Source of the DNA: Moraxellaceae bacterium
Lineage (GTDB): Bacteria; Pseudomonadota; Gammaproteobacteria; Pseudomonadales; Moraxellaceae
Length of the DNA stretch: 64,000 nt
Assembly (NCBI GenBank): GCA_030680295.1
Contig: JAUXVU010000018.1
Coordinates: forward strand, 558,001 to 622,000
Reading direction: 5' to 3'
In this document: piece by piece, positions 26,656 to 40,112 of the stretch
How positions within the stretch are numbered: the first letter of the stretch is position 1
Layout of the letters: the number at the start of each line of letters is the position of its first letter
Program-made: the position numbers and the translations under genes
Notes under the pieces: generated by a model
Told to the model about the DNA's origin: nothing
The model's input: only the letters and a program-made list of their open reading frames with translations
Databases searched by the model: none

Positions 26656-27069
26656 TTATTTTGCAGGCACAGGGTCGGTGACAAAGCCAATTTTCGCCAA
26701 CCCTGCGCCAGCCGCTGCAGCCAATACCTGTGCTACCACGTCATATGACGTAGTTTTATCAGCACGAAAATGCACTTCATCTTCTGCTGAAAACTGACTC
26801 AACACTCTCTCTAAATCTGCCAAGCTTACAGCCTGCTGATTAACAGATACTGCACCACTTGCCTCAATAACCAATTCGATCGGCTTACCAGCCGGAGCCA
26901 CTTGCTGACTGCTGGCCTGCGGTAAATCTACTTTCACGGCCTGAGTCATCAGTGGCGCAGTAATCATAAAAATAATCAGCAACACCAACATCACATCAAT
27001 AAAAGGCACCATATTGATTTCAGCATTTGCTTCAATCTCTTCGCCTTTTTCAAATGAGCCAAAAGCCAT
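26656..27069 (-). CDS. exbD: biopolymer transport protein ExbD
   Basis: Single-pass component of the TonB energising motor, 137 residues. The transmembrane segment starts with the protonatable aspartate in INMVPFIDVMLVLLIIFMITAP. The periplasmic domain runs from about 45 to the end with the LSQFSAEDEVHFRADKTTSYDVV segment. It is two bases after exbB and ends convergent with DUF934. Confidence 0.93.
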   Translation of the reverse strand: MAFGSFEKGEEIEANAEINMVPFIDVMLVLLIIFMITAPLMTQAVKVDLPQASSQQVAPAGKPIELVIEASGAVSVNQQAVSLADLERVLSQFSAEDEVHFRADKTTSYDVVAQVLAAAAGAGLAKIGFVTDPVPAK

Positions 27070-27071
27070 GA

Positions 27072-27839
27072 TTAGTTGACTCCCTGCTCGGGCAGTTGTG
27101 CACTTCGAGCACGAGAAATTACACGATCACTGGTGTTATGAAAGTCACTCAGCAAACTGCCAGTCGCTAGGCCAGTTGATAAGAAGGCAAAGACATCATG
27201 CGCAAAGCCATTAAGGCTGACCAAGGTATTACGGTTCAAACGCACGAATACGTTATATGCAACGGCTGCCGGAATGGCGACTGCCAAACCAAGGCCAGTC
27301 ATAATCAACGCTTCACCAATTGGACCGGCAACTTGATCCAAACCACCCTGGCCGCTAGCACCAATGGCTAACAGTGCATGGTAAATACCCCACACAGTAC
27401 CAAAAAGACCAACAAAAGGTGCACTCGAGGCCACCGTGGCCAAAAACGTTAATCCACTTTCCAATCTAGCCTTATCTTGATCGATAGCACGCTTCAGTGA
27501 GCGCGTTAAAAAGTCCTCTGCGGAACCTGCCTCAATCAAGCTATTTTGATTACGAGCTTGGTGCTGCTCAACAGCGGTAAAGCCGTGGTGCACCAAATGA
27601 GAAAATGGATCGGTAATGCCTGTACTACGCAATTTACGAGCAACCGCTTCTAGACTGGGAGACGCCCAAAAATCCTTCACAAAATCACGTGAGCGGTCAC
27701 GCGTTTTAAAGTACTGCCAAGACTTGGTCATGATGTAGTACCAAGTACCAATCGACATAACGACCAATACCGTCAGCACAAACCAAGCAACACCATCCGC
27801 TTGCGCTAAAAAACTTTGAAACCCCATTGAGTTGTTCAT
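27072..27839 (-). CDS. exbB: biopolymer transport protein ExbB (MotA/TolQ/ExbB channel)
   Basis: Inner-membrane proton channel subunit of the TonB system, 255 residues. Three transmembrane segments: about 17-38, 130-155 (ATVASSAPFVGLFGTVWGIYHAL) and 175-197 (GEALIMTGLGLAVAIPAAVAYN), with a cytoplasmic loop between the first two. GLFGTVWG and EAL-T-GLG-A-IPA are conserved channel motifs. Spaced four bases after tonB and two before exbD. Confidence 0.94.
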   Translation of the reverse strand: MNNSMGFQSFLAQADGVAWFVLTVLVVMSIGTWYYIMTKSWQYFKTRDRSRDFVKDFWASPSLEAVARKLRSTGITDPFSHLVHHGFTAVEQHQARNQNSLIEAGSAEDFLTRSLKRAIDQDKARLESGLTFLATVASSAPFVGLFGTVWGIYHALLAIGASGQGGLDQVAGPIGEALIMTGLGLAVAIPAAVAYNVFVRLNRNTLVSLNGFAHDVFAFLSTGLATGSLLSDFHNTSDRVISRARSAQLPEQGVN

Positions 27840-27843
27840 CTCA

Positions 27844-28509
27844 TCACCGTGTCAAATTAAACGTAATGGGCACAATCACCCACTCAGAAATTGCAATATC
27901 ACCACGCCTTGCAGGCACAAAGCGCCAACGTTTGACTGCGTCTAACGCTGCCTGATCTAAACGAGAATAGCCACTGGATTGATGTAGTTGTACTTGTAAA
28001 GCATTGCCCGTCTCACTCACTTGTACTCGTAGTAACACCCTTCCCGCCTCATTTAAACGGCGTGACTGCATTGGATAGGCAGGGGAAGGATTATTCAAAT
28101 AAGCCGCGTCAAAACGGGGGGCTACGACAGACGAATTCAATGCAGCAGCACTTTCATTTGCGGCTGCTGCAGAAGCTTGAACCACTTCATTTACTGGCTC
28201 TGGTTTAGGCTCTGCCGGTTTGGGCTCGGCCTTAACAGGTGCTGGCGCATCTGTCTTAACGCGTTTTACTTCGGCTTTTTTAGGCTCTGGTACGACTGGT
28301 TTTGGTATAGGCGGCTTAGGCACTGGTTGCGGCTGAATCACTTCCGCGGCAGCGGGCAGCATACGCACTGAAAGACTAGCAACTTGAGGAGGGACCACCT
28401 GAGTACTTTGCCAATAAATGCCTGCAAAAACTGTCGCATGCAACAAAACGGCAACCGCTAAGCCGATGGCATTAGCAGGTTTGGTCAGTTCAGTTGAGTG
28501 GTTCGCCAT
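27844..28509 (-). CDS. tonB: energy transducer TonB
   Basis: Transmits proton-motive force from ExbBD to outer-membrane receptors. It has 221 residues. An N-terminal transmembrane anchor (about 14-34) is followed by a Pro/Lys/Glu-rich spacer (PQPVPKPPIPKPVVPEPKKAE) and the C-terminal domain with NPSPAYPMQSRRLNEAGRVLLRV and SSGYSRLDQAALDAVKRWRF. The ATG at 28509 is chosen because two upstream in-frame ATGs fall in or right next to the predicted -10 box. No clear Shine-Dalgarno is seen. Confidence 0.92.
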   Translation of the reverse strand: MANHSTELTKPANAIGLAVAVLLHATVFAGIYWQSTQVVPPQVASLSVRMLPAAAEVIQPQPVPKPPIPKPVVPEPKKAEVKRVKTDAPAPVKAEPKPAEPKPEPVNEVVQASAAAANESAAALNSSVVAPRFDAAYLNNPSPAYPMQSRRLNEAGRVLLRVQVSETGNALQVQLHQSSGYSRLDQAALDAVKRWRFVPARRGDIAISEWVIVPITFNLTR

Positions 28510-28525
28510 AACAGTCATGGCCGGC

Positions 28526-28554
28526 ATGATAATTTAAATGAGAATGATTACCAA
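28526..28554 (-). promoter_or_regulatory. candidate tonB promoter
   Basis: On the minus strand, TTGGTA (28549-28554) and TATCAT (28526-28531) are separated by exactly 17 bases. Transcription would start about ten bases before the chosen tonB ATG. Confidence 0.55.
28534..28552. promoter_or_regulatory. candidate Fur box in the tonB promoter
   Basis: TTAAATGAGAATGATTACC matches 13 of 19 positions of the Fur consensus GATAATGATAATCATTATC. It fills the spacer between the predicted -35 and -10, so Fur-Fe2+ binding would block RNA polymerase. Iron repression of tonB-exbB-exbD is the usual pattern in gammaproteobacteria. Confidence 0.6.
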
Positions 28555-28586
28555 GAAGATAAAGCAATTTAATGGCTTAATTTGTA

Positions 28587-30464
28587 CTACTGCTTACGTC
28601 GCCTGCGCCATAAGGTGGTTCGGCTAATGCCCAAAACCTTGGCAGCTGCCGTTAAATCTCCTTGGCAATCAGAAACCACCTGCTCGATAGACAAACTCTC
28701 GGTGCCTTCAAGCTTGGAGACTGCATGCGCAGCAGAGCGGCCAAACTCAGGCAGCATGGCAAATAATAATGGTGAGTTGAGCGTAGGCTCCATGGCATAA
28801 CAAACCACCACTCGCTCACATAAGTTTTCTAATTCGCGCACATTACCGGGCCAGTCATAATCTTCGCTGTGTTGCAAAATCCAATCTAGCAAGGGCGCCA
28901 AAGGCGCCGACATACCATGCCGCGTTAATTCACGACGCAGCAGCTGCTCGGCCAGCAACGCCATATCACTGCCACGCTCACGCAGAGCCGGCAGCTGTAA
29001 GCGCAAAATATTAAGCCGGTAATACAAATCAGCACGAAACTGACCTTGGACTACCGCCTGATCAAGGTCGACATGGGTAGCAGCAATCACGCGGATATTG
29101 ATCGGCGTTGGCTCTGTTGAGCCCAAGCGAATCACTTCGCGCTCCTGCAATACACGTAATAGTCTGGTTTGCAGGCTGATTGGCATGTCGCCAATCTCAT
29201 CCAAAAACAAGGTGCCTTTATCCGCCAGCTCAATCAGGCCTGGCTTACCACCACGACGACTGCCAGTAAAAGCACCTTCCTCATAACCAAATAGCTCACT
29301 CTCTAACAGGTTTTCTGGCAAGGCCGCACAATTCAGCGCCACAAATGGAAAGGCCTTACGGGCACTAGCACGATGAATACCTTGTGCAAATAACTCTTTA
29401 CCCGTACCGGACTCACCCTGAATTAACACCCCAGAATCTGACTCAGCAAAACGTTGCGCCAGACTTTTAACCCACTTCATTACGTCGGACTCACCAACAA
29501 TGTCATCAATCAACCAGCGCGCTTGGAATTGTTTATTCACATTGGCGCGGCGTAGACGGCGCCCCGCCTCATCAATACGGCTGGCTTCTTGAAACGTTAA
29601 TAAGGCCCCGGTGGTTTTATCACCCTCCAACAAGGGCAAACGATTAATCACCAAGTTGCGACCTTTATAAGCAACTACTTCATCACGACGGACAACACCG
29701 TCTGCTAATACATGGGCCAGCGATAAACTGGCGGCTAACGATGACAAGGCTCTGCCTTTTGCCCAGTCAGCCACCACACCAATGAGCTGCTCAGCCGCTG
29801 GGTTCATCGCCAGCACCTGCTCTTGGGCATCAACTGCAATCACCCCTTCGTTCAGGCTGGCCAAAACCTGCGTGAGCTGATCACGCTTGGCTGCCTCCAC
29901 GCGGGTTATTTCTAAACGTTCCATGGCATCATCAATGGCTTGTCGGATGGCCGTCTCGGAATAAATCAGTACCCCCGGCAGCCCATAATGATTAGCCAAA
30001 TGCACAATCTGACTGGAGCCGACAATAACAACACCCGGTTGCACACTCAGCTCTTTCAGAATCAGCTCGGCATCTTGGTGATTATGATATGGACGCTGCT
30101 CTAGGCTTAAATTGAGCACTGGGCGCATGGCGGAGAACTCATCACCTAAACCCACCCGTGTGACAATCACAATGCGCTGACCAAAACGGCGGGCCTGAAT
30201 CAGCGCCTGCATGATGTCAAAACCACCGACCCTGATTTGCACCACCGGCTGACTAATCGCTGTGCGTAATGTCTTTGCGCTAGCGCCAGCGGCAACCACA
30301 GCAAACGGTCTACTAGCGCTGGCTAATGTTTGTAAGGTTTCAATCGCCTCATCAAGTGCTGCATCAACAATTCGGAAATCTGCAACTGCTGAATAGGCCG
30401 GCACAATGGCGCGAATTTGCTCCGCTAAATAACGGGTGGCAACGACTACCAATAATGGCTTCAT
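28587..30464 (-). CDS. prpR: propionate catabolism sigma-54 activator PrpR
   Basis: Sigma-54-dependent enhancer-binding protein of 625 residues. Order: PrpR_N sensor domain (about 1-180, 2-methylcitrate-binding in the family), PAS domain (about 200-300, [28 protein letters not shown]), AAA+ domain with Walker A GESGTGKE, the sigma-54 contact loop GAFTGS and Walker B LFLDEIG, then a Fis-type HTH at the C-terminus ([23 protein letters not shown] region). Divergent from prpC with 233 bases between starts; the intergenic palindrome probably also affects its own expression. Confidence 0.95.
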
Positions 30465-30484
30465 GTTTCACTCTTGAGACATAC

Positions 30485-30501
30485 GTTTCATAAATTGAAA
30501 C
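30485..30501. promoter_or_regulatory. palindromic candidate PrpR operator
   Basis: GTTTCATAAATTGAAAC is a 17-base perfect palindrome apart from its centre. Further GTTTCA or TGAAAC half-sites lie at 30465-30470 and 30515-30520, with a related GCGAAAC near 30507. The cluster is about 100 bases upstream of the sigma-54 promoter, the usual enhancer distance. Assignment to PrpR is inferred from location. Confidence 0.6.
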
Positions 30502-30596
30502 ATGAGCGAAACACTGAAACAATAAATTCCTTGCAAAATCTACGTCATAATAAATAACTACATTAAATACAATAACTTGGCGTTCATCGCTAAAAC

Positions 30597-30612
30597 TGGC
30601 ACAACATCTGCT
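30597..30612 (+). promoter_or_regulatory. sigma-54 (-24/-12) promoter of the prp operon
   Basis: TGGCACAACATCTGCT matches TGGCAC-N5-YTGCW at every conserved position, with correct GG to GC spacing. Transcription would begin near 30622, leaving about 75 bases of leader before prpC. Fits control by the divergent sigma-54 activator PrpR. Confidence 0.8.
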
Positions 30613-30697
30613 ATGCATTGAACTAGTAAAAACTACGTGTAAATTAGCGTAGACTCGATGACTCGAAAAAACCACATCCTCTGACAGGAGATTCACC

Positions 30698-31849
30698 ATG
30701 TCTGACGCACAAGTCGTGCTACCAAAAGCCAAGAAATCCGTTGCCTTATCAGGCGTTGCAGCCGGCAATACCGCGTTATGTACGGTAGGACGCACTGGTA
30801 ATGACCTGCACTACCGTGGATATGACATTCTTGAGTTGGCTGCACAGTGCGAATTCGAAGAAGTGGCTTACCTTTTAGTACATGGCAAATTACCGAATAA
30901 GGCTGAACTGGCTGGTTATAAGAAAAAACTGAAGAGCCTGCGTGGTTTACCCGCTTCCGTTAAAGCAGTTTTAGAAGCCCTGCCAGCCGCCGCCCACCCT
31001 ATGGATGTCATGCGTAGTGGTGTTTCTGCACTGGGTTGCACACTGCCGGAAAAAGATGACCACAACATTGCTGGTGCCCGCGATATTGCTGACCGCTTAA
31101 TGGCCTCTTTGGGCTCCATGCTGTTGTACTGGTACCACTTCTCTACCAATGGCAAACGCATTGAAGTTGAAACTGATGACGATTCTATTGGTGGTCACTT
31201 CTTGCATTTGTTACACGGTGAAAAACCATCGGATGAGTGGGTTCGTGCGATGCACACCTCGCTGAATCTTTATGCCGAACATGAATTTAACGCCTCGACT
31301 TTTACCAGCCGTGTTATCGCCGGTACTGGTTCAGACATGTACTCCGCCATTACGGGTGCCATTGGTGCATTACGTGGTCCTAAGCACGGTGGAGCTAACG
31401 AAGTCGCGTTTGAAATTCAAAAGCGTTACGAGAACCCAGATCAAGCAGAAGCTGACATTAAAGAACGTGTCGGCCGTAAAGAAGTCGTGATTGGCTTTGG
31501 TCACCCGGTCTACACCATTTCCGACCCACGCAACAAAGTCATTAAAGAAGTAGCACATCAGTTGTCGTTAGCTGAAGGCGACACCAAGATGTATGACATC
31601 GCCGAACGTCTTGAAAGTGTGATGTGGGACATCAAAAAAATGTTCCCGAACTTGGATTGGTTCAGTGCCGTTAGTTACCACGTAATGGGTGTACCCACTG
31701 CCATGTTCACACCATTGTTCGTGATTGCGCGCACCTCCGGCTGGAGCGCTCACGTCATCGAACAGCGTATTGACGGCAAAATCATTCGCCCATCGGCCAA
31801 TTACAATGGCCCAGAAGACTTGGCCTTTGTGCCAATTGATCAGCGCTAA
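30698..31849 (+). CDS. prpC: 2-methylcitrate synthase
   Basis: Condenses propionyl-CoA with oxaloacetate. A 383-residue citrate-synthase-fold protein, shorter than housekeeping citrate synthase. [16 protein letters not shown]-like N-terminus reads [29 protein letters not shown], a PrpC feature. Active-site histidines lie in [18 protein letters not shown] and [10 protein letters not shown], and the C-terminal [20 protein letters not shown] closes the family match. AGGAGA precedes the ATG. First gene of the sigma-54 operon. Confidence 0.95.
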
Positions 31850-31861
31850 TTCATTAGCCAA

Positions 31862-31887
31862 AAAGGGAGACGTCACAGTCTCCCTTT
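31862..31887 (+). other. prpC-acnD intercistronic hairpin
   Basis: AAAGGGAGAC and GTCTCCCTTT form a perfect 10-bp stem around a GTCACA loop, 13 bases after the prpC stop. No proper U-tract follows (CCCATTATT), so it looks more like an RNA-stability element or partial terminator that sets prpC above acnD than a full stop. Confidence 0.6.
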
Positions 31888-31920
31888 CCCATTATTGATC
31901 AACAAATTTGAGAAGCCGCC

Positions 31921-34524
31921 ATGAATAGTCAATTTCGTAAGCCCTTAAACGGCACTAATTTAGAGTACTTCGACGCACGTGCTGCCGTTGAAGCCATCAA
32001 GCCCGGCTCATGGGATGGTCTGCCCTACACTGCCCGTATTCATGCTGAAAATATTGTCCGTAAAGCCGACCCAGCCATTATTAATGATTGTTTGGTACAG
32101 CTAATTGAACGCAAGCGCGACCGCGACTTCCCGTGGTTTCCGGCACGTGTGGTTTGCCATGACATTCTTGGCCAAACCGCACTGGTTGACTTAGCCGGCC
32201 TGCGTGATGCCATTGCTGACCAAGGTGGCGACCCAGCCAAAGTAAATCCTGTAGTGCCAGTACAACTGATTGTTGACCACTCGCTGGCAGTTGAGTGTGG
32301 TGGTTATATTCCGGATGCTTTCCAGAAAAACCGCGATATTGAAGACCGTCGCAACGAAGACCGTTTTCACTTTATCGAATGGACCAAAACAGCCTTTGAT
32401 AACGTCGACGTGATTCCTGCTGGTAACGGCATCATGCACCAAATCAACCTGGAAAAAATGTCGCCGGTTATTCACAACCAAAACGGCCTTGCCTTTCCTG
32501 ACACCTGCGTAGGTACTGACTCACACACACCCCACGTAGACGCCTTGGGTGTTATTGCTGTTGGTGTTGGTGGTTTGGAAGCCGAAAACGTCATGTTAGG
32601 TCGCGCCTCATGGATGCGTCTGCCCGATATCGTGGGTGTTGAACTGACCGGCAAACGCCAACCTGGCATTACCGCTACTGACATCGTGTTGGCCTTAACT
32701 GAATTCCTGCGCCAACAAAAAGTGGTTGGTGCTTACCTCGAATTCTATGGTGAAGGTGTACCGGGTTTAACCATTGGTGACCGCGCCACTATCTCCAATA
32801 TGGCGCCTGAATACGGTGCTACAGCAGCCATGTTCTCGATTGATGAGCAAACACTGACTTATCTGCGCCTAACTGGTCGTACTGATGAACAAGTCGCGCT
32901 GGTTGAGACTTATGCCAAAGAAGCCGGGCTCTGGTCCGATAGCTTAAAAACAGCTGAATACGAGCGTGTATTAACCTTTGATCTGTCCAGCGTCGTCCGC
33001 AACATGGCTGGCCCAAGCAACCCGCACAAGCGTCTGCCAGTGTCCGACCTGGCCGCACGTGGCATTTCAGGCAACTTAGACTCAGCAAAAGCTGAAGAAG
33101 CTCAGGGCTTAATGCCAGATGGTGCCGTCATCATCGCCGCCATTACCTCCTGTACGAACACCTCTAACCCACGCAACGTGATTGCTGCGGGTCTTATTGC
33201 ACGTAATGCCCGTCAACTCGGCCTGGTTCGTAAGCCATGGGTTAAATCATCTCTAGCACCCGGCTCTAAAGTAGTTGAGTTGTACCTAAAAGAAGCCGGT
33301 TTGTTAGAAGACTTAGAAGCGCTGGGCTTTGGCATTGTGGCGTTTGCCTGCACCACCTGTAACGGCATGTCCGGTGCACTGGAACCTGAAATCCAAAAAG
33401 AAATCATTGAACGTGATCTTTATGCCACCGCCGTGCTTTCTGGCAACCGTAACTTCGATGGCCGCATCCATCCCTATGCCAAACAAGCTTTCCTGGCGTC
33501 ACCGCCACTGGTAGTTGCTTATGCCATTGCCGGTACCATCCGTTTCGACATTGAGCAAGATGTTCTGGCAGTAGTCGATGGCAAAGAAATTCGCCTAAAA
33601 GACATTTGGCCATCTGATGAAGAGATTGATGCCATTGTTGCTAAGTCGGTTAAGCCGTCACAGTTCAACCAAATCTATATCCCGATGTTCGAGAAAAAAG
33701 ATTCGGAAAAAGCGGTGTCACCATTGTATGACTGGCGCGAAATGAGCACTTATATTCGTCGCCCACCCTACTGGGAAGGCGCCTTGGCCGGTGAGCGTAC
33801 ACTCACTGGCATGCGTCCATTGGCTGTTCTGCCGGACAACATTACCACCGACCATTTATCACCTTCCAACGCCATCATGATGGACTCAGCAGCGGGTGAA
33901 TACCTGCATAAAATGGGTCTACCAGAAGAAGACTTCAACTCTTATGCTACTCACCGTGGTGATCACTTGACCACACAGCGGGCAACTTTTGCCAACCCCA
34001 AACTGTTCAACGAAATGGTGCGCAACCCCGATGGCAGCGTCAAACAGGGCTCATTGGCTCGCATTGAACCGGAAGGCAAAGTCACCCGCATGTGGGAAGC
34101 GATTGAGACCTATATGGAGCGTAAACAGCCGCTGATTATTATTGCTGGCGCCGATTACGGCCAAGGCTCATCACGTGACTGGGCTGCTAAAGGTGTACGT
34201 TTGGCCGGTGTTGAAGCCATTGTTGCCGAAGGTTTTGAACGTATTCACCGCACCAACCTGATTGGCATGGGTGTATTACCACTGGAGTTCAAGCCGGGCA
34301 CCACACGCCTGACCTTGGGCCTAGACGGTACTGAGACCTATGACGTTGTTGGTGAACGCACACCACGCGCTACGCTAACGCTGATCATTCATCGTCGTGA
34401 TGGCAAGACCGAGCAAGTGCCGGTGACCTGCCGTTTAGATTCTGACGAAGAGCTATCGGTGTATGAAGCCGGTGGTGTGTTGCAGCGCTTTGCCAAGGAC
34501 TTCTTGGAGGCAACCACGGCATGA
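31921..34524 (+). CDS. acnD: Fe/S-dependent 2-methylisocitrate dehydratase AcnD
   Basis: Aconitase-family enzyme of 867 residues that dehydrates 2-methylcitrate in organisms that lack PrpD. Cluster cysteines are in ITSCTNTSNPRN and CTTCNGMSG. Substrate and base motifs include VGTDSHTPHVDALG and the swivel-domain GADYGQGSSRDWAAKG. Family-typical length and its pairing with prpF identify it as AcnD rather than AcnA. It ends in a 4-base ATGA overlap with prpF. Confidence 0.95.
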   Translation: MNSQFRKPLNGTNLEYFDARAAVEAIKPGSWDGLPYTARIHAENIVRKADPAIINDCLVQLIERKRDRDFPWFPARVVCHDILGQTALVDLAGLRDAIADQGGDPAKVNPVVPVQLIVDHSLAVECGGYIPDAFQKNRDIEDRRNEDRFHFIEWTKTAFDNVDVIPAGNGIMHQINLEKMSPVIHNQNGLAFPDTCVGTDSHTPHVDALGVIAVGVGGLEAENVMLGRASWMRLPDIVGVELTGKRQPGITATDIVLALTEFLRQQKVVGAYLEFYGEGVPGLTIGDRATISNMAPEYGATAAMFSIDEQTLTYLRLTGRTDEQVALVETYAKEAGLWSDSLKTAEYERVLTFDLSSVVRNMAGPSNPHKRLPVSDLAARGISGNLDSAKAEEAQGLMPDGAVIIAAITSCTNTSNPRNVIAAGLIARNARQLGLVRKPWVKSSLAPGSKVVELYLKEAGLLEDLEALGFGIVAFACTTCNGMSGALEPEIQKEIIERDLYATAVLSGNRNFDGRIHPYAKQAFLASPPLVVAYAIAGTIRFDIEQDVLAVVDGKEIRLKDIWPSDEEIDAIVAKSVKPSQFNQIYIPMFEKKDSEKAVSPLYDWREMSTYIRRPPYWEGALAGERTLTGMRPLAVLPDNITTDHLSPSNAIMMDSAAGEYLHKMGLPEEDFNSYATHRGDHLTTQRATFANPKLFNEMVRNPDGSVKQGSLARIEPEGKVTRMWEAIETYMERKQPLIIIAGADYGQGSSRDWAAKGVRLAGVEAIVAEGFERIHRTNLIGMGVLPLEFKPGTTRLTLGLDGTETYDVVGERTPRATLTLIIHRRDGKTEQVPVTCRLDSDEELSVYEAGGVLQRFAKDFLEATTA

Positions 34525-35714
34525 GTCAGCAACTAAAAGTGCCTGCCACCTATATGCGTGGCGGCACCAGCAAGGGTGTGTTTTTCCGCTTACAGGACTT
34601 GCCAGCAAGCTGCCAACAACCCGGCCCAGCACGCGACAAGCTGTTTATGCGCGTGATTGGTAGTCCTGACCCCTACTCAGCGCATATCGACGGTATGGGC
34701 GGCGCTACATCATCCACATCCAAGTGTGTGATTTTGGCTAAAAGCAGCGTGCCCGAGCACGACGTAGATTATCTCTACGGCCAAGTTTCCATCGACAAAG
34801 CCTTTGTCGACTGGAGCGGCAACTGCGGTAACTTGTCCACGGCAGCCGGTGCCTTTGCCATCCATGCAGGATTGGTTGATCCATCACGTATTCCGGAAAA
34901 CGGTGTCTGTATGGTTCGCATTTGGCAGGCCAATATTCATAAAACCATTATTGCTCATGTACCGGTCAGCAATGGCCAAGTGCAAGAAACAGGTGACTTC
35001 GAACTCGATGGCGTGACCTTTCCGGCAGCTGAAATTGTGCTGGAGTTCATGGACCCATCCGATGATGGCGAAGATGGCGGCTCGATGTTCCCTACCGGCA
35101 ATCTGGTGGATGAATTAGACGTTGCTGATGAAGTCGTCAAAGGCGGCAAGCTCAAAGCCACTTTGATTACTGCCGGCATCCCTACTGTGTTTGTGAATGC
35201 ACAAGACATTGGTTACACCGGCACAGAATTGCGTGAAGCCATTAACACAGACCCGGCAGCACTGGCTCGTTTTGAAGCCATTCGCATTGCCGGTGCTTTG
35301 CGTATGGGTCTGATTAAAACGCCAGAAGAAGCGGCCACACGTCAGCACACGCCCAAGGTTGCCTTTGTAGCACCAGCAACAAACTATGTGTCATCCAGCG
35401 GCAAAACCGTGAACGCCGATGACATCGACTTAGTGGTTCGTGCGCTGTCCATGGGCAAGCTACATCACGCCATGATGGGCACTGCTGCGGTGGCGATTGG
35501 TACTGCTGCTGCCATTCCCGGCACGCTGGTTAATCTGGCTGCTGGTGGTGAGGCGCGTGAAGCCGTTCGTTTTGGTCACCCATCCGGCACCTTGCGTGTC
35601 GGTGCAGCGGCTGGCCAAGTTGATGGCCAATGGCGTGTCACCAAGGCCATCATGAGCCGAAGTGCGCGGATATTAATGGAAGGTTTTGTACGTGTCCCTG
35701 CCGACACGTTCTAA
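34521..35714 (+). CDS. prpF: 2-methylaconitate cis-trans isomerase PrpF
   Basis: Isomerises the AcnD product so that an aconitase can hydrate it. It has 397 residues and a diaminopimelate-epimerase-like fold. VPATYMRGGTSKGVFF at the N-terminus, DGMGGATSSTSKC, DWSGNCGNLSTAAGAFA and RFGHPSGTLRVGAA are diagnostic. Translationally coupled to acnD. With acnD it replaces PrpD; no prpD is present here. Confidence 0.95.
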   Translation: MSQQLKVPATYMRGGTSKGVFFRLQDLPASCQQPGPARDKLFMRVIGSPDPYSAHIDGMGGATSSTSKCVILAKSSVPEHDVDYLYGQVSIDKAFVDWSGNCGNLSTAAGAFAIHAGLVDPSRIPENGVCMVRIWQANIHKTIIAHVPVSNGQVQETGDFELDGVTFPAAEIVLEFMDPSDDGEDGGSMFPTGNLVDELDVADEVVKGGKLKATLITAGIPTVFVNAQDIGYTGTELREAINTDPAALARFEAIRIAGALRMGLIKTPEEAATRQHTPKVAFVAPATNYVSSSGKTVNADDIDLVVRALSMGKLHHAMMGTAAVAIGTAAAIPGTLVNLAAGGEAREAVRFGHPSGTLRVGAAAGQVDGQWRVTKAIMSRSARILMEGFVRVPADTF

Positions 35715-35735
35715 CGAAAATTACAGGAAAAAATC

Positions 35736-36596
35736 ATGTCTACTAAAAAGACTTTAAAAGCGCTAGCTGAAGCTCGTCGTGGCTTAATTGTGCCCGGCGC
35801 ATTTAACGCGCTGTCCGCCAAAGTCATTGAAGACTTAGGCTTTGAAGCCATTTATGTTACCGGCGCTGGTGTGACCAATATGTGGTATGGCATGCCCGAT
35901 CAAGGTTTTATGGGCCTAGCAGAAATTGCCGATCACACCGCCCGTATTCGTGATGCCGTCAACCTGCCATTGATTGTCGACTGCGACACCGGCTTTGGTA
36001 ATGCCATGAATGTGTATCACAGCGTACGCACGTTAGAGCGCGCTGGTGCTGACTGCATTCAGTTAGAAGACCAAGTGGCACCTAAGCGTTGTGGTCACTT
36101 TAATGGCAAAGAAGTCATCAGCACTGCTGAAGCCGTCAGCAAAATCAAAGCAGCTGTTGATGCTCGTCGTGACAGTGACTTGATGATTATGGCGCGTACT
36201 GACGCCTGTGCCATGCTGGGTTTTGAAGCGGCCGTTGAACGCGCACAGTTATTTGCCGAAGCCGGTGCCGACATTTTATTTGTTGAAGCCGTCACCACCG
36301 CTGAAGAAATTCGCTCCCTGCCTACGCTCATCAATAAACCCCAGCTGATGAACATGGTCATTGGTGGCAAAACGCCAATTTTTAACGCTGAAGAACTGGG
36401 CGACTTAGGTTATGGCATTGTGCTTTATGCCAACGCCGGACTTCAGGGTGCACTGGCAGGCATGCAAAAAGTGCTCACGGTATTACGTGACGAGAAACAA
36501 GTCTTAGAAGACCCGAACTTGGTGGCACCATTTGCCGAGCGTCAGCGCTTGGTAGACAAACCATTCTGGGACTCATTAGAGAAGCGTTACACCTAA
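35736..36596 (+). CDS. prpB: 2-methylisocitrate lyase PrpB
   Basis: Cleaves 2-methylisocitrate to pyruvate and succinate, the last step of the cycle. It has 286 residues and belongs to the isocitrate lyase/PEP mutase superfamily. The flexible-loop signature is K117-R-C-G-H121, the metal-binding segment is VDCDTGFGN (81-89), and YVTGAGVTN is near the N-terminus. AGGAA precedes the ATG. Its stop overlaps the ATG of the following hydrolase by one base (TAATG). Confidence 0.96.
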   Translation: MSTKKTLKALAEARRGLIVPGAFNALSAKVIEDLGFEAIYVTGAGVTNMWYGMPDQGFMGLAEIADHTARIRDAVNLPLIVDCDTGFGNAMNVYHSVRTLERAGADCIQLEDQVAPKRCGHFNGKEVISTAEAVSKIKAAVDARRDSDLMIMARTDACAMLGFEAAVERAQLFAEAGADILFVEAVTTAEEIRSLPTLINKPQLMNMVIGGKTPIFNAEELGDLGYGIVLYANAGLQGALAGMQKVLTVLRDEKQVLEDPNLVAPFAERQRLVDKPFWDSLEKRYT

Positions 36597-37684
36597 TGAA
36601 ACCAGTATCTACACTGAGTCGTCGTGTACGTGACAGACTGCCGATGCGTGCTATACGCAATTTAAGTGACCGTCTGTTGCGTGCCGATGAGCTAAGTCTG
36701 GCCGAACAAACGCCCTTTCAGGTCATCGCTGAAGAAGACATCGTCAAGCTGCGTTATTACCCACCGGCAGCAGGCCAACAGCCTGATAAACAGCCGGTGG
36801 TTATTGTGCCGCCATTGGCGGTGAACATGCTGATCTATGACCTGTTCCCAGAGCGTAGTTTGGTGGCTTATCTGCGCGACCAAGGACACCCTCTGTACCT
36901 GATCGACTGGGGTCGCCCCGGTCGTGGACAGGCCCATTTTCGTTTCAGCACCTATCTGACACGCTTTATGCCTGCCCTGCTTGCAAAGGTGCGTAGCCAT
37001 AGTGGTCAACAAGTATTGTCACTGCATGGCTGGAGCTTGGGTGCAGTACTAAGCTACTGCTATACCGCATTGGGAGATCCGCACATCGACAAGTTGGTGT
37101 TGCTAGGTCCCCCCTGCGACTATCACGCTGGCACCGGCGGCGCACAGAATCGTTTGTTAGCAAGGCAAGTGCGTCGAATTGAAAAGTTCACCGGTCGACA
37201 AGTGCATAACAGCCGTCGTGAGTTATGGCATGTGCCGGGCTGGGCCAATGCGCTGGGCTTTAAACTCATGAGCCCTGGCGGCACTATTCGCGGTTATCAA
37301 GAGCTGCTGCAAAATCTGAATGATCGTGACTATGTGGCTGCACACGCCACCAATGCCGCATTTCTAGATGATATGGTGGCCTACCCCGGTGGTTTTGTGC
37401 AGGACATTGTGCGTTTTTTGATCACGGATAATGTGTTGGCGCAAGGTCGTCTGCCGATTCGTGGCTGTGATGCCAAACTCGAGTCCATTAGCGCTAACGT
37501 ACTGATTGTGGTGGGTGATAAAGACCCCATCATCACACCGGTTGCTAGCAAACGCTTGGTGGAACTTATGCCAAAAGCAAATTGCCAACTAATAGAGGTG
37601 CCGGGCGGACATATGAGCATCGTCAGCGGTAGCGCAGCACCAACCGCCATTTGGCCTGTGGTGGCTCAGTTTTTGTCGCTTTAA
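36596..37684 (+). CDS. PHA-synthase-like alpha/beta hydrolase with serine nucleophile
   Basis: A 362-residue alpha/beta-hydrolase with clear likeness to polyhydroxyalkanoate synthases: VVIVPPLAVNMLIYDL, PLYLIDWGRPGRG and VLSLHGWSLGAVLSYCY. The nucleophile elbow is G-W-S147-L-G, so serine stands where PHA synthases have cysteine. Asp308 or Asp310 (VVGDKDPI) and His339 (GGHMSI) complete a triad. A hydrolase, depolymerase or transacylase role is therefore more likely than polymerisation. It overlaps the prpB stop by one base and looks like the last gene of the propionate operon. Substrate unknown. Confidence 0.75.
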   Translation: MKPVSTLSRRVRDRLPMRAIRNLSDRLLRADELSLAEQTPFQVIAEEDIVKLRYYPPAAGQQPDKQPVVIVPPLAVNMLIYDLFPERSLVAYLRDQGHPLYLIDWGRPGRGQAHFRFSTYLTRFMPALLAKVRSHSGQQVLSLHGWSLGAVLSYCYTALGDPHIDKLVLLGPPCDYHAGTGGAQNRLLARQVRRIEKFTGRQVHNSRRELWHVPGWANALGFKLMSPGGTIRGYQELLQNLNDRDYVAAHATNAAFLDDMVAYPGGFVQDIVRFLITDNVLAQGRLPIRGCDAKLESISANVLIVVGDKDPIITPVASKRLVELMPKANCQLIEVPGGHMSIVSGSAAPTAIWPVVAQFLSL

Positions 37685-38106
37685 ATTTGCAACGCTAAAG
37701 CGACAACCACCAAATAGCGACCCAATTTAGCCACCGTGACAACCAAGGTAAAACGCCACAGTGGTTCGCGTAACACCCCCGCTATGACCGTTAGCGGGTC
37801 GCCAATCACTGGCATCCAACTCAGCAGCAATGACCAACGCCCATAACGCTGATAGTGTCGCTCTGCTTTTGCCAACTGAGCGGCATTGGCGGGAAACCAT
37901 GCTCGATCTTTAAACCGTGACACATAGCCGCCCATCCACCAGTTCACTACCGAACCCAGAACATTGCCGACAGTAGCTACCAGCACCAAGGTCCAGAGTA
38001 AATATCGGTCACTCATGACCAAGCCTGCCAGTACGGCCTCCGAGCCCATGGGCAACAAGGTGGCCGCTACAAACGCCACAGCAAAAAGACCTAAATAAGC
38101 GCTCAT
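37681..38106 (-). CDS. YqaA-family (DedA/SNARE-associated type) membrane protein
   Basis: A 141-residue membrane protein with about four hydrophobic segments. GSEAVLAGLV, VATVGNVLGSVVNWWMGGY, YQRYGRWSLLLSWMPVIGDPLTVIAGVLR are typical of the YqaA branch of the VTT/DedA superfamily, which is linked to lipid scrambling and envelope homeostasis. Four bases overlap the convergent hydrolase. It follows the KtrB-like gene by 15 bases. Confidence 0.86.
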   Translation of the reverse strand: MSAYLGLFAVAFVAATLLPMGSEAVLAGLVMSDRYLLWTLVLVATVGNVLGSVVNWWMGGYVSRFKDRAWFPANAAQLAKAERHYQRYGRWSLLLSWMPVIGDPLTVIAGVLREPLWRFTLVVTVAKLGRYLVVVALALQI

Positions 38107-38121
38107 TAAGCTGTCACCGCA

Positions 38122-39462
38122 TTAACCAATATGCACATCCCCATCCGGGTGTCGTACCCGCAACACACTGGGCTTGGCTAACAAAAAGACTAAGGTCAGC
38201 GGGCCGATACGGCCAATAAACATGCACACCATCAATATCCATCGGCCAGGTTCCGAAATATATTCGGTAATACCCATGGACAAACCAACGGCACCAAGTG
38301 CCGATACAACCTCAAAGAAAAGCTGTAAAAAGCCAAGATGGCTATCCGTAACACTAATTAAAAAGAGAGCAGTCAACACGAACATCATGGCAATAAAAGC
38401 CAACGCTAATGAACGAAGAATCACACTTGGTGGAATGCGACGACCAAAAGCTACAGGGGCATCACGGCCACGCAAAAATGCGCGAGTAGACAATACCAAT
38501 ACCATAAACGTAGTGACCTTAATGCCACTAGCTGCTGAGTTAGTACCACCACCGATAAACATTAAAACAATGACTAATATAGAAACAGTTAATGTCACAC
38601 CACCCATGTTAATCATGCTTAAACCAGCTGATCGTGGGGTAATGGCATGGAATACTGCAACCCAAAACTTTTCTTGTGTATTAAAGACTCCTAAAGTTTC
38701 TGGATTGTGCCACTCAAATAGAACCACAATCAAAAATGTGAAAAGTAGCAAACCAGCAGAACCTGTGAGCATTAGTTTAGAGTGCAGACTCAATCGAGCC
38801 CATGACTTAAAGGAGCGCAATTCAGCTAAAACAGTAAAGCCTAGTCCGCCAATAATAATTAAACCGCCCATAATGACGGTGATTGGCCACTCTCCTGCCC
38901 ATCTAGCAAGCGAATCACCATAAAGTGAGAGTCCTCCACCATTAAAACTAGAAATGGTAAAAAAAATGCTCTGGTAAAACCCTTGAGCCAACCCCAATTC
39001 AGGCACGAAATACAAAAATAGAAGTAATGCACCAATCCCTTCAATAATAAAAACCAGCGCAACAATGCGTTTAACCAACCAACCCAAGTCGCTAACTCGT
39101 GTGTAATTCATCGCCTCGCGTACCAAGCGCTGCTCACCAATCCCTAGTTGCTGGCCAAGCATCATCAGCACCAGTGCAGCAAAGGTCATAATGCCAATCC
39201 CACCTGCCTGCATTTGCAACATCAAAATAATTTGACCAAACAAGGTCATGCGTGAACCAATATCAACTACACCTAAACCAGTCACCGTAGCGGCACTGGT
39301 GGACATAAAAAAGGCATCAGACCAAGTAATAGGGGATGTCGTTGCCCACGGCGTTTTCAACAACAGAGCACCAACCACAATGAGCGCCAAAAAGCTCAAC
39401 GTAATCAGCGAAGAAGGGTTAAGCCCCCGCTTTTTTTGCTCCGACAAACGAAAAGACTTCAC
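38122..39462 (-). CDS. TrkH/KtrB-type potassium transporter membrane subunit
   Basis: Membrane pore of a K+ uptake system, 446 residues with about ten hydrophobic segments. The first selectivity filter is SAATVTGLGVV; other pore-loop-like stretches are ISSFNGGGLSLYG, FHAITPRSAGLSM and VSALGAVGLSMGI, giving the fourfold TrkH/KtrB repeat. Size and a single-domain TrkA partner suggest a Ktr-type rather than Trk system. GTG start in a 4-base overlap with the upstream nucleotide-binding gene. Confidence 0.9.
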   Translation of the reverse strand: MKSFRLSEQKKRGLNPSSLITLSFLALIVVGALLLKTPWATTSPITWSDAFFMSTSAATVTGLGVVDIGSRMTLFGQIILMLQMQAGGIGIMTFAALVLMMLGQQLGIGEQRLVREAMNYTRVSDLGWLVKRIVALVFIIEGIGALLLFLYFVPELGLAQGFYQSIFFTISSFNGGGLSLYGDSLARWAGEWPITVIMGGLIIIGGLGFTVLAELRSFKSWARLSLHSKLMLTGSAGLLLFTFLIVVLFEWHNPETLGVFNTQEKFWVAVFHAITPRSAGLSMINMGGVTLTVSILVIVLMFIGGGTNSAASGIKVTTFMVLVLSTRAFLRGRDAPVAFGRRIPPSVILRSLALAFIAMMFVLTALFLISVTDSHLGFLQLFFEVVSALGAVGLSMGITEYISEPGRWILMVCMFIGRIGPLTLVFLLAKPSVLRVRHPDGDVHIG

Positions 39463-40112
39463 AATATTTTCTTCGCGAACTTCAGCAAGTTATCCAACAT
39501 TCCACAAAGTACAATTTGATCGTCTGGCTGAAGTAACAGGCCGTGATATGGAGGAGGCAGCAGTCTGCTACCACGCTTAACAGCCATCAGCGTAACTTCT
39601 GCTAAGTCTAATTCCGTGTCGTAATTTGTTTTGCATGCAATGGCTTCATTAACTTTAATTTCCACTACAAACCAGCCATGGCCTAGGGCAATGTAGTCCA
39701 GCATTTGCGGGTGCGTTAGATTCTGTGCCACACGCACACCAATTTCGTTTTCCGGATGGATAATGCGATCGGCTTGCATACGCTGCAAAATGAGATGGTG
39801 AGCATCACTTAAGGCTTTTACCCAAACTTGCTTACAACCTGCACTCTTAAGCGCCAGCGTGGTCAGAATACTGGCTTCAATATTTTCACCAATCGCCACC
39901 ACCACACCGTTATACGAGGCAAGACCTAGCTCTTCAATAACACGCTCATCGGTGCCGTCTGCCACTAAAGCCTGCGTTAACTTATCGGCAAATTTATCGA
40001 CATAACGCGGATCGACATCAATACCTAACACTTCATGCTGCAAGCGCACCAATTCGACGGCAACGGTGCCGCCAAAATTACCCAAGCCAATGACGGCAAA
40101 TTTCTGCTTCAC
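39459..40112 (-). CDS. TrkA/KtrA-type RCK regulatory subunit
   Basis: Cytosolic gating ring subunit of 217 residues. GLGNFGGTVAVEL is the Rossmann nucleotide-binding motif; an RCK_N domain (about 1-125) is followed by an RCK_C domain (about 135-217). A single RCK pair, as in KtrA, not the duplicated TrkA. GTG start; three bases after the MFS transporter stop. Confidence 0.91.
   Translation of the reverse strand: MKQKFAVIGLGNFGGTVAVELVRLQHEVLGIDVDPRYVDKFADKLTQALVADGTDERVIEELGLASYNGVVVAIGENIEASILTTLALKSAGCKQVWVKALSDAHHLILQRMQADRIIHPENEIGVRVAQNLTHPQMLDYIALGHGWFVVEIKVNEAIACKTNYDTELDLAEVTLMAVKRGSRLLPPPYHGLLLQPDDQIVLCGMLDNLLKFAKKIL

Follow-up and report, generated by a model that had tools for sequence, protein, structure and literature searches.

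A PhaC-related gene with a serine elbow at the end of a rebuilt propionate operon in a Moraxellaceae bacterium

Introduction

Propionyl-CoA enters the methylcitrate cycle as its substrate and can also feed 3-hydroxyvalerate. In the window analysed here, a stretch of 64,000 nucleotides from a Moraxellaceae bacterium (assembly GCA_030680295.1, contig JAUXVU010000018.1), a propionate (prp) operon ends in a gene, termed abh, for a relative of the polyhydroxyalkanoate (PHA) synthase PhaC. What might such a protein act on, and why does its gene lie behind prp genes? An earlier reading of the sequence alone (hereafter the sequence-only reading) took it for a PHA or acyl-thioester hydrolase regulated by PrpR that would couple storage polymer turnover to propionate catabolism. 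We instead favour, with an even chance of being right, a storage-lipid or acyl-ester hydrolase that was captured by the prp operon and is perhaps under PrpR.

The prp operon and its last gene

The operon and its surroundings contain the following features.

28587–30464, minus strand: prpR, sigma-54 activator, divergent (TIGR02329 above cut-off)
30597–30612, plus strand: sigma-54 (-24/-12)-like site TGGCAC-N5-CTGCT upstream of prpC, one mismatch
30698–31849, plus strand: prpC, native to the genus (NCBIfam model above cut-off; 81–85% identity in six congeners)
31921–34524, plus strand: acnD, native to the genus (NCBIfam model above cut-off; 88–92% identity in six congeners)
34521–35714, plus strand: prpF, native to the genus (NCBIfam model above cut-off; 84–90% identity in six congeners)
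35736–36596, plus strand: prpB', divergent PrpB-like lyase, 1-base overlap with abh (TIGR02317, 275 bits against a cut-off of 354)
36596–37684, plus strand: abh, Ser-elbow PhaC-like alpha/beta hydrolase, 362 aa (open reading frame, family models, fold prediction)
37034–37036, plus strand: codon of Ser147 (GWSLG), predicted nucleophile
37523–37525, plus strand: codon of Asp310 (GDKDP), predicted triad residue
37610–37612, plus strand: codon of His339 (PGGHM), predicted triad residue
37681–38106, minus strand: membrane-protein gene, DedA-like by our own label, converging on abh with a 4-base overlap

The abh frame is intact, with an ATG start and no internal stop, and at 36596 (TAATG) the last base of prpB' is the first base of abh. 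A window scan found no terminator-like site on the plus strand at this junction, which lends slight support to read-through because the terminator and promoter scans were at chance level (11 vs 9.6 and 5 vs 6.9, respectively). From this layout we infer that prpB' and abh are co-transcribed and translationally coupled, and regulation of abh by PrpR is plausible. It is its position that argues for the sigma-54-like site, because the pattern was not enriched across the window (52 found vs 62.5 expected at ≤2 mismatches). Downstream, the converging membrane-protein gene, which gave only weak sub-cut-off matches to UptA models, marks the operon end. By family models, neither direct neighbour of abh (prpB' and the membrane-protein gene) is PhaE/PhaR-like.

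The sequence-only reading had described abh as the last gene of the prp operon, overlapping prpB by one base. The overlap and the position held, with prpC, acnD and prpF upstream and prpR divergent, but the supposed prpB is a divergent PrpB-like gene. Its product shared 35% identity with the canonical PrpB of G006, a congener, and had the loop NMVIGGKTP vs NITEFGDTP in canonical PrpB. It may act on another substrate or have taken the place of the usual lyase. The best relative found (62%) lies in genome G042 among other genes, outside a prp cluster, and G042 gave no abh match at 1e-45. In the genome of the window, a search at 1e-60 matched prpB' alone, but a canonical prpB might score too poorly to pass this limit.

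A PhaC-type fold with serine at the elbow

The kinship of abh with PhaC is, judged by family models, far above chance. The best NCBIfam model by score was TIGR01836 (class III PhaC; E = 4.9e-40, residues 26–360), with 137.6 bits, below its cut-off of 365.3. TIGR01838 (73.2 vs 622.65) and TIGR01839 (40.9 vs 855.4) also stayed below theirs. Pfam PhaC_N exceeded its cut-off (27.6 vs 23.7 bits, covering 55 of 173 model positions), as did Abhydrolase_1. The PhaZ models fell short, with 22.2 vs 300.75 bits for TIGR01849 and 23 vs 27 for PF06850, the latter match being to the PHB depolymerase C-terminus. The 'acyl-CoA synthetase' model NF005898 matched residues 36–360 with its hydrolase part only (E = 1.3e-35; 122.5 bits vs a full-length cut-off of 925), and with 362 aa abh has no fused C-terminal acyl-CoA synthetase.

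Where PHA synthases have Cys as the elbow nucleophile, abh has Ser147. We aligned 82 sequences, namely the window protein, the Cys paralogue of the same genome and 80 named homologues, the best 80 of 175 stretches from a scan for relatives that took one genome per species. Position 147 was Ser in 81 of the 82, the sole exception being the Cys paralogue; Asp310 was conserved in 81 and His339 in all 82. In an alignment of seven rows, including two PhaC annotated as class III and an actinobacterial fusion protein, the Asp310 and His339 columns corresponded to the Asp and His of the PhaC triad and were invariant.

An AF2 model of abh, built from a 40-sequence alignment, had a mean pLDDT of 92.2, and its best PDB fold matches were PhaC structures (Z 30–33). 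Next came acid lipases (dog and human gastric lipase and lysosomal acid lipase, Z 26–27), which unlike abh are animal enzymes and share 12–14% identity with it, followed by monoglyceride lipases (about 23.7); PHB depolymerase was also matched (Z 21.3). This ranking is one among Foldseek's own candidates and does not exclude families missing from them. Together, sequence and prediction point to a PhaC-type fold with Ser-Asp-His at the PhaC triad positions. The sequence-only reading had noted PhaC kinship, the landmarks YLIDWG and PPLAVN (here within VPPLAVN) and Ser for Cys in GWSLG, all of which were found, and with PhaC as the best fold (Z 33) abh does not cluster with generic alpha/beta hydrolases that are devoid of such kinship. 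Because the nucleophile is Ser, a hydrolase seems the better assignment than a polymerase.

A native operon, rebuilt and ending in a foreign-looking gene

The genus of the window was represented by seven genomes, and the six congeners were compared with it. All six have canonical prpB-prpC-acnD-prpF at their prp locus. A GntR gene precedes prpB in five (the sixth stretch ends at prpB), tonB-exbB-exbD follows the block in five (the remaining stretch ends), and the far side, visible in two, carries trkH in both. Neither prpR nor an abh-type gene was seen in the prp stretches of the six. In the window, by comparison, prpC-acnD-prpF is inverted between tonB and trkH (26656–40112 vs L165–L170), GntR and canonical prpB are gone from the locus, and a sigma-54 prpR, the divergent prpB' and abh are present. 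The prpC-acnD-prpF block is 81–92% identical to that of the congeners and therefore native, and the inversion, with these losses and gains, indicates that the operon was rebuilt in this lineage.

No prp gene lay beside any abh homologue in the 80 named loci (best 80 of 175; flanks up to 8 kb, some shorter). Five of the six congeners carry a Ser homologue (47–50% identity to abh), far from prpF or on another contig and with no prp gene in the stretches around it; the sixth had no match. Linkage of prp genes and abh was thus found in one genome only, that of the window, and seems to reflect a single rearrangement peculiar to this lineage. The sequence-only reading was right that abh is not a standard prp gene, and the conserved prpB-hydrolase linkage that it had proposed to survey is rejected by these counts (0/80 named loci and 0/5 Ser-bearing congeners). 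The Ser gene has no consistent neighbours across lineages in the named loci (best 80 of 175); psd-, LysR- or acyltransferase-like neighbours, identified by eye from the first part of each sequence, do recur, but chiefly inside Alcanivorax or Marinobacter.

Two trees were built, both midpoint-rooted. The first, by maximum likelihood, had 95 rows, many Marinobacter and Alcanivorax rows, duplicate fetches and rows of <250 residues being left out; the second included annotated class I/III PHA synthases and the actinobacterial row. The gammaproteobacterial Ser-elbow rows formed one clade (100/99 in the 95-row tree, 96/99 in the second) adjoining a Cys clade with a GWC elbow, and the annotated class I/III PHA synthases grouped apart (100/99). 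The neighbouring Cys proteins are PhaC-like. Because of the midpoint rooting, it is likely, but no more, that Cys was ancestral to Ser.

Within the Ser clade of the 95-row tree, the window protein grouped with Sinimarinibacterium, a Nevskiales bacterium, Algiphilus and Oceanococcus (100/100), and the proteins of the congeners lay on the Moraxellaceae side near Agitococcus, with a weak join (90/20). Forcing the window row together with the five congeners was rejected (AU p = 0.0002), and so was forcing it together with all nine Moraxellaceae-side rows. A search with the abh protein found no second Ser copy in the window's genome, which together with the foreign placement fits replacement of a native gene by a foreign one. 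The prpB'-abh pair was probably joined locally, because none of 20 genomes bearing an abh relative had a close prpB': 19 had a PrpB relative at 1e-40, 39–45% identical to prpB', and one had none. A foreign pair from a single donor is not supported, since these 20 genomes and G042 lack a matching pair. Composition was uninformative as evidence of transfer (GC 0.531 for abh, 0.539 for prpF and 0.496 for the window), and a phage origin was rejected as abh had no match in phage records.

These results bear on a rival that concerns the operon link and is compatible with any enzyme reading, namely that abh is a passenger, a lipid hydrolase gene placed behind prpB' by rearrangement with no functional link to propionate. 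The single occurrence of the linkage, the six congener prp loci that have no such gene, the grouping of this copy away from the congeners and the lack of a second Ser copy in the genome all speak for it. Against it, abh is tightly coupled to prpB' through one shared base and its active site is intact and conserved, which suggests that the cell at least tolerates its expression with the operon. We consider that it could well be true, its chance falling slightly short of even.

Two side observations arose among the relatives. One, in G445 of the class-wide genome set described below (L225, 1501–2481), has the elbow GWGGGG; its nucleophile is lost with most of the sequence kept, and it was not counted as Ser. 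G445 has the wax ester/triacylglycerol synthase WS/DGAT. Two Acinetobacter baumannii 'plasmids' of about 3.7–4.0 Mb (L191, L234) that carry abh relatives look like misfiled chromosomes.

The Ser clade follows WS/DGAT

For the favoured reading, a storage-lipid or acyl-ester hydrolase, the company of the Ser gene across genomes matters. Bacterial synthesis of wax esters and triacylglycerol (TAG) by WS/DGAT is well described. In an order sample of 145 genomes, 21 had an abh relative at 1e-30, of which 15 had the Ser form; a Cys relative was also present in 13 of the 15. WS/DGAT (TIGR02946) was found in 57 of the 145 genomes and in all 15 Ser genomes (Fisher p = 2e-7), and by genus in 11/11 Ser genera vs 35/91 (p = 9e-6). 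A class-wide sample of 369 genomes, which shares two Ser genomes with the order sample, had WS/DGAT at 1e-90 in 19 genomes, including six of the seven with the Ser gene (p = 5e-8); the seventh was G377. These statistics ignore kinship and are confounded by shared ancestry. Class I-type PhaC (1e-100 to the class I model) was present in 38 of the 145 genomes and in only 3 of the 15 Ser genomes. The Ser clade follows WS/DGAT rather than PHA synthase.

Of the 57 WS/DGAT genomes of the order sample, 42 had no Ser gene at 1e-30. The Ser gene did not lie beside WS/DGAT in the 80 named loci (best 80 of 175) within the flanks examined, nor in five Ser loci of the class-wide sample, whose flanks reached about 1.5 kb at most. 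None of the 38 genomes with class I-type PhaC came from family f43, of which the search covered at least four genomes. Some Ser proteins of f43 are identical to named Alcanivorax rows, and on this ground we assume that the family is Alcanivoracaceae.

The Cys paralogue of the window's genome (L002, L163; G000:C6:462941-464035), with the elbow GWCMGG, lies between valS and an acyl-CoA synthetase gene, and with the latter may represent the actinobacterial fusion protein in split form. An acyl-CoA synthetase gene is directly downstream of all six GWC copies in the genus, this one included. Ten GWC-elbow loci outside the genus were compared, and in six of them WS/DGAT immediately precedes the Cys gene in the same orientation (with it: G101, G111 twice, G037, G031 and G193; without: G069, G377, G396 and G280). 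Five of the ten (L208, L227–L230) were assigned by elbow and 51–63% identity to the paralogue rather than by tree, and for several the flanks measured about 1.5 kb. More distantly related Cys proteins lie behind a fadA-like gene (L203, L204) or beside two hotdog thioesterase-like genes (L209, L213), all named by eye from sequence starts.

Nearest described systems

Among described proteins, the closest to abh is a mycobacterial one, BCG1721 (identical to Rv1683), through its lipase domain; PMC10699116 presents it as a bifunctional acyl-CoA synthase/lipase at lipid inclusions. According to that paper, its overexpression raised TAG in non-replicating cells and led to more TAG breakdown on reactivation, the latter impaired by S150A; because TAG also rose, the protein is not simply a lipase as portrayed there. 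PMC6572852 and PMC5571309 describe BCG1721/Rv1683 alike. PMC10699116 places the lipase C-terminally and PMC11980559 N-terminally, and the N-terminal placement fits residue 150 and our alignment. From its architecture, we infer that Rv1683 is a member of NF005898.

A Tsukamurella protein (L232), the actinobacterial fusion protein of our alignments, passes the NF005898 cut-off (1529.8 bits vs 925). It is 28% identical to abh and has Ser155 and the Asp and His at the abh triad columns, followed by an AMP-binding ligase. In the second tree it fell with the Ser and GWC clades (95/90), a closeness that is unsure because its branch is very long (4.46). The BCG1721/Rv1683-type lipase domain (NF005898/PRK07868) thus resembles abh in residues 36–360 being alignable, in the Ser-Asp-His columns and in the neutral-lipid context shared with the Ser clade, whereas abh is stand-alone, lacks the fused acyl-CoA synthetase and is gammaproteobacterial. 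Class III PhaC (TIGR01836) shares the PhaC fold and a nearly full-length alignment with abh, but abh has Ser instead of Cys, has no adjacent PhaE/PhaR-like gene and stands apart in the tree.

Other enzymatic readings

It is unlikely, but deserves attention, that abh is no lipase and instead adjusts the pool of acyl-CoA (possibly propionyl-CoA) as an acyl-CoA thioesterase or an acyl-transferase. PhaC enzymes use acyl-CoA, the methylcitrate cycle starts from an acyl-CoA as noted above, and the fadA-like, acyl-CoA synthetase and thioesterase-like neighbours of the relatives (L203 and L204, L163, L209 and L213) would suit such a role. The only relative that we found with a tested role, BCG1721, affects TAG; moreover, WS/DGAT is the commonest neighbour of the sister clade outside the genus (6/10), and prp linkage was not found elsewhere (80 named loci, best of 175, and five congeners).

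Much less probable is a hydrolase of PHA or PHA oligomers coupling polymer turnover to propionate. The sequence-only reading had proposed such a coupling, and the PhaC fold, the 23-bit PHB depolymerase match and the flow of propionyl-CoA into 3-hydroxyvalerate are in keeping with it. However, no class I-type PhaC was found in the window's genome, where a search with the abh protein for class III/IV PhaC gave the Cys paralogue alone. As the PhaZ models were below cut-off and the Ser form tracks WS/DGAT (15/15) and not class I-type PhaC (3/15), we rejected coupling to PHA as the main reading. That abh is a PHA synthase working with a Ser nucleophile is hardly credible despite kinship and fold, since Cys is needed for efficient PHA polymerisation, Ser is kept across the clade although 13 of the 15 Ser genomes also hold a Cys relative, and the direct neighbours are not PhaE/PhaR-like.

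Proposed role and meaning

In the favoured reading, abh is a storage-lipid or acyl-ester hydrolase that the operon captured. It would cleave esters by means of its serine and belong to a family that is related to PhaC and linked with neutral-lipid (wax ester/TAG) and acyl-CoA metabolism; from the sequence comparisons, its substrate would probably be storage lipids. Its Ser nucleophile would form an acyl-enzyme and hand the acyl group to water, as in a lipase or an acyl-ester (possibly acyl-CoA) hydrolase. A copy of the Sinimarinibacterium/Algiphilus/Oceanococcus type would sit behind prpB' at the end of the rebuilt prpCacnDprpF operon and, co-transcribed and perhaps under sigma-54/PrpR control, would let the release of stored acyl chains rise while propionyl-CoA is burned, e.g. 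from odd-chain fatty acids. A functional tie to propionate is possible because odd-chain acyl chains yield propionyl-CoA. A physiological link remains a guess, and simple capture by the operon is about as likely.

A bolder version, which we regard as speculative and probably wrong in some part, holds that a Cys-to-Ser switch in the PhaC lineage gave rise to the intracellular wax ester/TAG lipases of wax-making Gammaproteobacteria, parallel or related to BCG1721/Rv1683, and that in the window such a lipase came under a propionate regulator, with 2-methylcitrate signalling driving the mobilisation of stored (odd-chain) lipid. If true, it could explain some Alcanivorax strains that are annotated with 'phaC' and make no PHB. 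PMC5174103 reports an annotated phaC2 (ABO_1418) in Alcanivorax and no PHB accumulation. Alcanivorax carries the Ser gene, and ABO_1418 itself may belong to this family, with either Ser or Cys at the elbow.

The texts surfaced by our literature search, seen as excerpts, named no enzyme for Gammaproteobacteria that mobilises wax-ester or TAG stores. The Ser clade, with its kinship to PhaC and its tendency to occur where WS/DGAT does, offers a concrete candidate for this step that can be put to the test. A PhaC-like annotation in Alcanivorax, Marinobacter or Moraxellaceae need not imply PHA. In the window itself, a native prp operon has been rebuilt and now includes a regulator and a lyase that are new to it, as well as a hydrolase of lipid type. 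On the Novosphingobium plasmid pNL2 (L233, 3607–5056), a gene annotated phaE adjoins a class III-like PhaC that is annotated only as an alpha/beta fold hydrolase.
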